Source: Syntrophaceae bacterium (GTDB lineage Bacteria > Desulfobacterota > Syntrophia > Syntrophales > PHBD01). Taken from it: a stretch of DNA of 64,000 bases. Location of the stretch: NCBI GenBank assembly GCA_013177825.1, contig JABLXX010000006.1, positions 186,001-250,000 on the forward strand. The letters run 5' to 3'. The notes under the pieces are model-generated. The model worked only from the letters and a program-made list of their open reading frames with translations. It had not been told where the DNA came from and ran no database searches. Made by a program: the position numbers and the translations under genes. This document shows, in pieces, positions 58,059-59,902 of the stretch. How positions within the stretch are numbered: the first letter of the stretch is position 1; every line of letters starts with the position of its first letter.

Positions 58059-58568
58059 TTACCGTGTCGTCCGGTTCCGCTGGTGAAGCTGGATTTCCAG
58101 TTCCTTGAGGAGCTTCAGGTCTTTCCTCAGCTGTTCGTTTTCCTGCTGGAGCGTCCCCAGTTCCGTCTGGAGGCGCTCTTTGACCTGGTTCATTTCCTTG
58201 CGGAGCTGCTCGTTCTCCCGATGGAGGCGCTTGTTCTCCGCCACCGTCTCGGCGGCCGTCCGGGTTCCTGCATGGATCGACTCGTTCAGGCGTTCCTGCT
58301 CGTCGAGCAGGCGAGCCAGAACTTCCGAAGTCCTTACCCAGCGGCTCTCGGGGTAAGTCAGCGTCAGCTCCGCAAACATGTTTCTCGCCCGGACCGGCGC
58401 TTCCGGTCCGCCTGCCTCGAGGGCCATGAGTCCCGCCTCAAAAAGCTCCGTGTCGGAAGAAGGCGGCTTGGGAACGGGCGTTTCGGTCACCACCGACGCT
58501 GACGGGGCGCAAGCGGCGATTCCCAGCAGCAGGAGAAGAACGGCTATCGTCCGCATGCACGGTCTCAT
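58059..58568 (-). CDS. Coiled-coil lipoprotein
   Basis: 169 residues. Lipobox in IAVLLLLLGIAACAPS. The mature part has a helical repeat-like segment (LFEAGLMALEAGGPEAPVRA) and a long coiled coil (about residues 105-165: NKRLHRENEQLRKEMNQVKE). It is downstream of the GGDEF gene and overlaps its stop by 4 bp, so both are made from one mRNA. Probable outer-membrane or periplasmic structural or signalling partner; family not recognised. Confidence 0.65.
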   Translation of the reverse strand: MRPCMRTIAVLLLLLGIAACAPSASVVTETPVPKPPSSDTELFEAGLMALEAGGPEAPVRARNMFAELTLTYPESRWVRTSEVLARLLDEQERLNESIHAGTRTAAETVAENKRLHRENEQLRKEMNQVKERLQTELGTLQQENEQLRKDLKLLKELEIQLHQRNRTTR

Positions 58569-59902
58569 GAGATCGCCTTTCCCAATGTCTCCTGTTTCAC
58601 GTAGTTGCTTCCCGGCAGTGTCTTGGCGTACTCCTTGAGCTCCGCCGCCTTTTTCGCCATCGACAGCGCACTCGGGAAACGGCTTCCGTCGTCCGTAACG
58701 ATGGCCACGCTCACGGTGATCAGGGGGAATTTCTGAGCCTGTCCCTTTCGGTCTTTCCCTTCGATGGAGCCGCGCTCCCGGTCCTCGGCGCTGTAGAAGG
58801 ACTGGATGTGCCCCTCAAATTCCTCCACGAGCTGGCGACTCATCGCCTCGGCGACCACCGGCTCGGCAATGAGTACAAAGTCGTCCCCGCCGATATGGGC
58901 GACGAAGACTTCCTCCTCGCCCGCCGCATCCAGATGCTGTGTCAGGATCTTGGCCACCTCCTTGATGACCTCGCTGCCCCACGCGTATCCATACTTGTCG
59001 GCGAAGGGCTTGAAGTTGTCAAGGTCCACGTGGCAGAGGGAGAACATTTTTCCTTCCCCCCTTCGCTGTTCCAGTTCCCGTTCGATGGCCAGATTCCCTG
59101 GGAGCCCCGTCAGGGGCGAAGCGTCAAGATTCAGGGCCTCCAGTTCCTTCAGTCGCTCCGTCATGACTCCAAAGGCCTGGGCCAGGGAGCCGATCTCATC
59201 GTCCCGCTCCATCTGAATGGCCGGGTCGAAGTTCCCCTCGGCGATCACCCCCGTGGCCTTCTCAAGTTTCCTCAGCGGAATCGATATGTTGTAGGTAATA
59301 AACAGGGCGACGATCATCCCGCCCAAGAGGCTGACGAGGCTGAGCAGGATCGTGATTCGCGAGGCCCGGAGGCCCTGTTCATTGATCAGGTTCATTCGGG
59401 AGTCGACGTCCCGTTCCCCCCGCTTCTGACAGTCCCGCAGAGAAGAGGCCATCTGGTCCAGAAGCGGCTTGCCCTCCTGCTCCGACAGGACCCGGGCTTC
59501 GTCGACCTTGTTTTCCTGAACGAGGGCAATCTCTTTCTGGAAAATCTCCCCGTACTGCCGGTGGAGAAGGCCGATCAGGGATACCCGCTTCGTGATGGTC
59601 GTCGAGCGGTTCTTCCCCATGGATTCCAGGCCCGTCTTGAATTCCCGGCTCAGGCTCCAGAAGATCTCCGTCAGTTGGGGATCCTTGAGGATCAGGAACT
59701 TCTTTTCCGCGCTCTCCTGGGCCAGGAGTGTCTCCGAGAGGCCCTTGGCGGTCTCCACCACCGGAACGTCCTCATTGATGATCAGGTAGGCCAGATCGCT
59801 CAGCCGCCCGAGGCTGAGCACGGCGTAGAGACTGGCCAGGACCGTCAGAAAGGCCATGGCGAAGTAGCCAAGAAGCAGTTTTCGGCGGATGGTCAGTTTC
59901 AT
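58565..59902 (-). CDS. Membrane GGDEF protein with HAMP, Hypr-like Asp-to-Ser substitution
   Basis: 445 residues from the ATG at 59902 (MKLTIRRKLLLGYFAMAFLT). TM1 is at about 9-32, a periplasmic helical sensor region at about 33-185, TM2 at about 190-212, and a HAMP domain at about 213-265. The GGDEF domain follows, with signature GGDDF at 338-342. In the nucleotide-binding loop the text is FKPFADKYGYAWGSEVI, where canonical diguanylate cyclases have N..D-YGH--GDEV. Ser310 replaces the guanine-contacting Asp, a mark of Hypr GGDEF enzymes that make 3',3'-cGAMP. No inhibitory RxxD site is visible. Overlaps the lipoprotein gene. Confidence 0.85.
   Translation of the reverse strand: MKLTIRRKLLLGYFAMAFLTVLASLYAVLSLGRLSDLAYLIINEDVPVVETAKGLSETLLAQESAEKKFLILKDPQLTEIFWSLSREFKTGLESMGKNRSTTITKRVSLIGLLHRQYGEIFQKEIALVQENKVDEARVLSEQEGKPLLDQMASSLRDCQKRGERDVDSRMNLINEQGLRASRITILLSLVSLLGGMIVALFITYNISIPLRKLEKATGVIAEGNFDPAIQMERDDEIGSLAQAFGVMTERLKELEALNLDASPLTGLPGNLAIERELEQRRGEGKMFSLCHVDLDNFKPFADKYGYAWGSEVIKEVAKILTQHLDAAGEEEVFVAHIGGDDFVLIAEPVVAEAMSRQLVEEFEGHIQSFYSAEDRERGSIEGKDRKGQAQKFPLITVSVAIVTDDGSRFPSALSMAKKAAELKEYAKTLPGSNYVKQETLGKAIS

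Follow-up and report, generated by a model that had tools for sequence, protein, structure and literature searches.

Genes and features at the locus

The window analysed here is the whole stretch of 64,000 nucleotides from a Syntrophaceae bacterium contig, and the subject of interest within it is a sensor-containing GGDDF protein (P0001) together with the lipoprotein encoded directly after it (Table 1). A preliminary description had delimited the first of these genes without naming its strand, and its open reading frame lies on the minus strand. Pfam matches of P0001 above cut-off were obtained for 4HB_MCP_1, CHASE3, HAMP and GGDEF. The lipoprotein reading frame starts inside the last four bases of the P0001 gene, at the stop codon, and the gene overlap noted earlier was thereby upheld. 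The other neighbours of the pair are a convergent penicillin amidase gene downstream, standing where a response-regulator gene was looked for and not found, and a divergent nucleoside-recognition (Gate) gene; therefore, the operon appears to be limited to two genes.

The nearest named records to P0001 were from Deltaproteobacteria bacterium HGW-Deltaproteobacteria-19 (94% identity) and from two Syntrophaceae metagenome genomes (54–55%). Contig search with a single sequence yielded four loci, of which L053 (Fictibacillus) is merely a distant GGDEF match. The AlphaFold model of P0001 is weak (pLDDT 68, pTM 0.41, residues 205–269 below 50), for which reason pocket geometry was not drawn from it.

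Table 1 Features of the P0001 locus, in window positions.
Feature	Positions	Strand	Remarks
P0001, four-helix sensor/HAMP/GGDDF gene, GSU1937-type	58565..59902	minus	445 aa; ATG at 59902, stop included at 58565
Periplasmic four-helix sensor of P0001	59333..59815	minus	about residues 30–190; QseE sensor domains are the best solved matches
Sensor residues 61–75 (AQESAEKKFLILKDP)	59678..59722	minus	contains the sensor's 12 best-conserved residues; aligned to QseE region near R70/R73
HAMP domain of P0001	59144..59290	minus	residues 205–253, Pfam
GGDEF domain of P0001	58598..59131	minus	about residues 258–435
Asp293 codon	59024..59026	minus	metal ligand by alignment; invariant, 97/97 rows
Ala301 codon	59000..59002	minus	site of the guanine-contacting Asn
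Ser310 codon	58973..58975	minus	site of the guanine-selecting Asp
GGDDF motif	58877..58891	minus	residues 338–342; sequence and 97-row alignment
Lipoprotein gene	58059..58568	minus	169 aa, Cys20; TPR-like part and coiled coil; 4-base overlap with cyclase gene
Lipoprotein residues 154–164, LKELEIQLHQR	58077..58109	minus	Leu/Glu/Arg at +0/+4/+10, matching in register the helix by which QseG binds QseE

Guanine pocket and relatives of P0001

Alignment with a solved diguanylate cyclase (fkpfadkygyawgsev over fkaindtyghlsgdev) pairs Ser310 with the guanine-selecting Asp and Ala301 with the nearby pocket Asn, and both substitutions proposed on first reading are borne out. The same reading had the protein "keep" GGDDF; the motif is indeed present at residues 338–342, but the usual motif ends in EF. 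At the position of the cross-dimer Arg, P0001 has Asn270. Among the 18 GGDEF matches in the genome, P0001 alone carries Ser at the selecting position.

Conservation was followed in 97 full-length homologue rows, a set that includes at least two genomes twice (L021/L050 and L035/L051) and whose filter leaves six family rows outside, namely the fragments L044, L046, L047, L048 and L052 and the nearly whole L061. At the selecting position 88 rows have Ser, 9 have Asn and none has Asp, while Asp293, His336, Asp340, Asp341, Lys423 and Lys427 are invariant (97/97). A sub-branch of the family with Asn in place of Ser was also seen (L062, L064–L068, L070, L072 and L255). The pocket position 301 is occupied by Asn (35 rows), Ala (32), Gly (17), Ser (12) or Val (1), and Trp308 accompanies Ala in all 32 rows, occurs besides in one Val row and one Gly row, and is absent from the remaining 63. 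As judged from the alignment, the Asn-to-Ala change is a mark of the Syntrophus-like branch, and its link with Trp308 may be a single event on the tree. We found no assayed enzyme that has Ala or Gly in place of the pocket Asn.

Ser and the stretch YGYAW[G/A]SE recur in every P0001 orthologue with a complete stretch (in L048 that part is broken, and L049 is another kind of relative), and dN/dS against the 94%-identical gene (L050) is 0.063 in the sensor and 0.074 in the GGDEF domain; therefore, the Ser310 pocket can be attributed neither to chance nor to decay. GGDDF/GGDDY relatives of the GGDEF domain without the P0001-type sensor have Asp at the selecting position in 22/22 cases. These Asp-bearing GGDDF relatives are likewise without the cross-dimer Arg (N, S or G), as are the family rows in the tree (N or G), and the replacement of this Arg is thus not specific.

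Asp-to-Ser at the selecting position, named in the preliminary description as the Hypr hallmark, is indeed published as such, along with the Ser/Thr rule and Bd0367 (PMC9140294, PMC6456294). The founding Hypr GGDEF enzyme is GacA (GSU1658, Gmet_1914), in which roles have been explained for Ser348 and Asn339, for the cross-dimer Arg and for the Asp of GGDEF, the pocket Asn binding the base (PMC6456294). P0001 resembles GacA in the Asp-to-Ser change and in being without the cross-dimer Arg; however, GacA retains the GGDEF motif and Asn339 and is under Rec-domain control (PMC6456294), whereas P0001 has Ala301 and, in place of GGDE[F/Y], GGDDF, a departure for which GSU1937 is the published exception. 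GacA had been put forward as the comparator for P0001, and it is GSU1937 of Geobacter sulfurreducens that fits instead.

GSU1937 is the second cGAMP synthase of that organism, a transmembrane HAMP protein with Ser348 and GGDDF, and among 28 other GGDEF proteins of G. sulfurreducens it alone shares the Hypr serine of GacA (PMC8835794). When GSU1937 is deleted, a cGAMP reporter falls by ~25% on fumarate and by ~70% on Fe(III) citrate, and the enzyme thereby contributes to cGAMP in the cell (PMC8835794). The wild-type protein and three fusions with GacA were inactive in E. coli; of the four fusions F4 alone was active, making cGAMP and c-di-GMP and becoming inactive as a GADDF mutant (PMC8835794). 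GSU1937 is called the first known active GGDDF enzyme, and many homologues in Deltaproteobacteria are mentioned (PMC8835794).

P0001 and GSU1937 are alike in their transmembrane HAMP and GGDDF parts, in Ser at the selecting position and in having no other catalytic domain. Members of the family from Geobacter-like genomes align with P0001 over nearly the whole length at 35–40% and have the same four-helix/HAMP/GGDDF architecture. The upstream GSU1937 deletion primer matches ~700 bases before the family gene with 2–3 mismatches of 24 (L071, L093, L099, L301), the gene-end primer, reading STPGSNY where the family has PGSNY, matches with 4–5 mismatches of 21 (L093, L296, L071), and the other inner primer matches near the gene start with 3–4 mismatches of 19 (L077, L299). 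The published GSU1937 primers found no exact match among the loci compared from the phylum at large, the Geobacter-like family and its neighbour family, and the downstream deletion primer had a good match at no family locus compared. On the strength of shared architecture, residues and deletion primers, the P0001 family appears to be that of GSU1937; the Geobacter-like label given to the genus and family of genome G339 was itself drawn from the primer sites and the many GEMM-Ib riboswitches. The pocket differs, in that the Geobacter-like genus keeps Asn in 4/4 genomes (L073, L093, L094, L099) and P0001 has Ala, and the activity of GSU1937 is therefore probably no argument for the Ala pocket.

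Homologues of P0001 were nearly whole in 25 of 60 related genomes (this one included) and present in parts in 4 more, with additional members in further genomes of the phylum; at E 1e-50 they were found in 44/48 genomes of the Geobacter-like family and in 10/13 of the family neighbouring it. A tree of 126 GGDEF domains was built by a quick method with the three pocket/motif columns removed, the program warning of long branches for L016 and several canonical rows, and it places the P0001 family and L061 on one side of a branch with SH-aLRT 93. L234, a domain resembling that of GacA from a Geobacter-like genome, carries Ser, GGDEY and, in the cross-dimer place, Tyr; it groups among the canonical GGDEF domains, across a branch of support 100 from the P0001 family. 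It follows that the selecting Asp was lost at least twice and that Ser arose separately. A GGDEF domain of the Geobacter-like G339 (L235) combines a selecting Thr (GHFAGTEM) with GGDEF and Met at the cross-dimer place, and is a possible further Hypr enzyme.

QseE-related sensor and its lipoprotein neighbour

When the sensor profile, taken without HAMP, was compared with 177,635 PDB sequences, the best three matches were QseE (9m07 and 9m08) and 8jwd, labelled a histidine kinase, at modest E values of 0.00095–0.0019, with a designed repeat protein close behind as the fourth (E 0.0026). Against E. coli GlrK, the sensor gave an hhalign probability of 97.2. The VIA-align score of the four-helix part (QseE 9m07, Z 13.6) was not used, being no higher than for designed bundles. 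In the alignment, the 12 most conserved residues of the sensor (61–72) fall on the QseE region that includes R70 and R73, as counted on the E. coli sequence. QseE R70A abolishes and R73A weakens QseG binding (PMC12691602); in P0001, R70 corresponds to Ser64 (Arg in 23/77 rows) and R73 to Lys67 (Lys or Arg in 41/77 rows).

Kinases with a related sensor were found in seven of the 10 kinase regions examined, the other three being without a sensor match (L248–L250). A response regulator of 452–460 residues is encoded downstream in 7/7 and a lipoprotein-like ORF lies between in 6/7, those of L246 and L247 being judged by eye and L251 having no clear lipoprotein. Where domains were checked, two kinases have HisKA and HATPase_c, and three regulators have a receiver and a sigma-54 activator. 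These loci share the glrK–qseG–glrR gene order of E. coli. The P0001 pair resembles QseE–QseG–QseF (GlrK–QseG–GlrR) in its four-helix sensor and HAMP, in the lipoprotein gene directly after and in a matching contact motif; unlike that system, it has a GGDDF cyclase where QseE has a kinase, and no QseF-type regulator gene follows. Another likeness is offered by YfiB–YfiR–YfiN of Pseudomonas, a membrane GGDEF enzyme controlled by a lipoprotein and a periplasmic protein, which nevertheless differs from the P0001 pair in its sensor, its separate periplasmic repressor and its canonical cyclase.

Among the 21 loci read, window included, 19 have a same-strand ORF with a lipobox-like start directly downstream of the family gene: 16 were flagged by script, two (L112 and L114) by a wider pattern, and L121, whose lipobox is unusual, by eye only. 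L109 and L118 showed none, and in the Geobacter-like locus L123 the lipoprotein gene has the same 4-base overlap. The cyclase-side and kinase-side lipoprotein sets match each other with hhalign probability 99.1 (E 1.1e-18), and both comprise a TPR-like stretch similar to BamD and a coiled coil. Pfam returned only sub-threshold coiled-coil matches for the window lipoprotein. Direct comparison with QseG gave a weak match confined to the C-terminal helix (probability 6.5, P 0.0056; three shuffled QseG sequences 0.53–0.73), and the TPR-like body gave no alignment.

Exchanges L209D and R219A in QseG abolish its complex with QseE (PMC12691602). These residues are L198 and R208 in E. coli, the offset of 11 fitting the five residues named, and hhalign sets them opposite Leu154 and Arg164 of the window lipoprotein. 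Two of 23 lipoprotein rows were dropped before counting (L106 truncated, L121 wrong ORF), and the anchored QseG contact motif is present in 18 of the remaining 21, i.e. 15/17 beside cyclases and 3/4 beside kinases, the exceptions being L120, L124 and L244. A looser pattern, L-x3-[ED]-x5-[RK], occurs in 16/21 lipoproteins; in 1000 shuffles of the tails, which do not preserve the heptad pattern, the expected number was 5.4 and the maximum 11. As the anchored motif was defined after the sequences had been seen, only the looser-pattern shuffle serves as a control, and as coiled coils are rich in such residues, the motif is taken as support and not as proof. The preliminary guess of a sensory complex is strengthened by the recurrent downstream lipoproteins, the match of the lipoprotein sets, the QseE sensor matches and the QseG contact motif.

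Among the papers found in searches on GSU1937, QseG and cGAMP in Syntrophus, no title or displayed abstract describes lipoprotein control of this family, a stripped guanine pocket or QseG/QseE-type control, and the passages of PMC8835794 consulted do not describe lipoprotein control of GSU1937. The enzyme type is already known; judging by sequence comparison, what seems to be new is the QseE-like sensor, the lipoprotein linkage and the QseG-type contact residues.

Proposed cyclase module, alternatives and riboswitches

The homology, conservation, gene order and sensor–lipoprotein relationships observed here, together with the published GSU1937 activity and QseG–QseE contact, point with roughly even chances to a two-gene envelope-sensing module, in which a QseG-like lipoprotein would control an active, promiscuous cyclase of the GSU1937 type with cGAMP among its products. 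From these we infer the activity of P0001, its product and its control by the lipoprotein. The lipoprotein, probably of the outer membrane, would span the periplasm and contact the dimeric four-helix sensor by its C-terminal helix, in the way that QseG contacts QseE. HAMP would relay the signal, which would set the two GGDDF domains against each other, and from two purine nucleotides the paired domains would form a 3',3'-cyclic dinucleotide. Since Ser and Ala replace the guanine-reading Asp and Asn, and Asn replaces the cross-dimer Arg, P0001 should accept ATP as well as GTP and would form a mixture including cGAMP, as its homologue GSU1937 does. The invariant carboxylates, dN/dS of 0.06–0.07 and the active homologue favour an active cyclase; Asp in place of the Glu general base (fourth motif residue) and the loss of the pocket Asn speak against activity, as do the lack of c-di-GMP activity in the GGDDF protein PA3258 and the fact that only one of the four GSU1937 fusions worked in E. 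coli.

A broader proposal, put forward tentatively and with odds somewhat against it, is that one sensory module of QseG-like lipoprotein and QseE-type sensor serves either a kinase or a cyclase throughout the phylum, GSU1937 included, and that the Syntrophus-like branch, without any guanine-reading residue, would accept ATP and make a cGAMP-type signal read by receptors other than GEMM-Ib. GSU1937 accounts for most of the cGAMP reporter signal on Fe(III) citrate, and its switch is not given in the passages of PMC8835794 consulted; a conserved partner lipoprotein that makes contact in the manner of QseG would be a testable answer and would link envelope state to cGAMP signalling. The Ala/Ser pocket would further show how far guanine recognition by GGDEF domains can be stripped without loss of catalysis.

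It is unlikely, though worth serious consideration, that P0001 is an active diguanylate cyclase whose sole or main product in the cell is c-di-GMP, with Ser310 tolerated because of the Asp in the third place of the motif. Such behaviour is known from the D-to-S mutant of GSU3350 (a GGDEF protein), which is active solely as a diguanylate cyclase (PMC6456294), and the F4 fusion makes c-di-GMP at a level comparable to GacA (PMC8835794); moreover, the one GEMM-I riboswitch that the genome yielded belongs to the c-di-GMP type. However, all three guanine-reading positions are replaced in P0001, Asp is absent from the selecting position throughout the 97 full-length rows, and cGAMP was also a product of the GSU1937 fusion (PMC8835794).

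It is also rather improbable that the GGDEF domain is catalytically dead and kept as a receptor or scaffold, for example binding a nucleotide and relaying the state of the sensor to another protein. The invariance of the metal/base carboxylates and the two C-terminal lysines (97/97 rows) argues against this, albeit conservation alone is compatible with a binding role, and an active GGDDF homologue exists (PMC8835794); set against these are the change of Asn, Asp, Arg and Glu base alike, the variability of residue 301 (N, A, G, S, V) and the absence of c-di-GMP activity in PA3258, another GGDDF protein (cited in PMC8835794).

Very improbable is an ATP-preferring cyclase in the Ala301/Trp308 branch that would produce c-di-AMP or another adenine dinucleotide, for although the loss of Asn removes the other guanine contact and Trp308 accompanies Ala301, that link may be one tree event. 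The idea that P0001 makes up for an absent c-di-AMP synthase was abandoned, since a DAC-domain gene (c-di-AMP synthase) is present in the genome, as is a c-di-AMP riboswitch. We know of no GGDEF enzyme that prefers ATP or makes c-di-AMP.

For the preferred reading of a promiscuous cyclase with cGAMP among its products, the receptors in this organism are of concern. A search for GEMM-Ib (A20) cGAMP riboswitches, suggested at the outset, found none in the P0001 genome, where the single GEMM-I match has G20; in this the genome is unlike that of GSU1937, and a cGAMP signal would need other receptors here. The match (L019 1501–1588; G000 contig C9:75060–75147) precedes a DsbC/thioredoxin-like gene and an ORF resembling type IV pilin by eye. 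Position 20 was numbered on what we take to be the Vc2 riboswitch numbering, together with a Geobacter-like control. With the same model, A-type switches were found in 4/4 genomes of that control, its 30 loci showing A in 14 by script and, where the script was off by one base, in 6 more by eye, with 2 left without a call.

The 60 related genomes, this one included, gave 64 GEMM-I matches in 26 genomes, with G at position 20 in 61, A in 2 and one uncalled by script (L152, G by eye). Eight of the 29 genomes with a family gene hold 12 of these matches, none with A, and the two A20 matches, L213 (G031) and L216 (G053), come from genomes of the same order that are without a family gene among the matches. 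The filters were stricter than in the Geobacter-like control, so weak A-type switches may have escaped this search, L213 having been found nonetheless. L213 resembles a Geobacter-type riboswitch, and G031 may hold a Geobacter-like contaminant. Lastly, GEMM-I variants of the form AAGCC...GACGGAAAG or AACGGAAAG, as though C21 had changed places with G46 and G20 been kept, were observed at L149, L150, L151, L208, L214 and L217–L219 (genomes G004, G008, G019 and G023).
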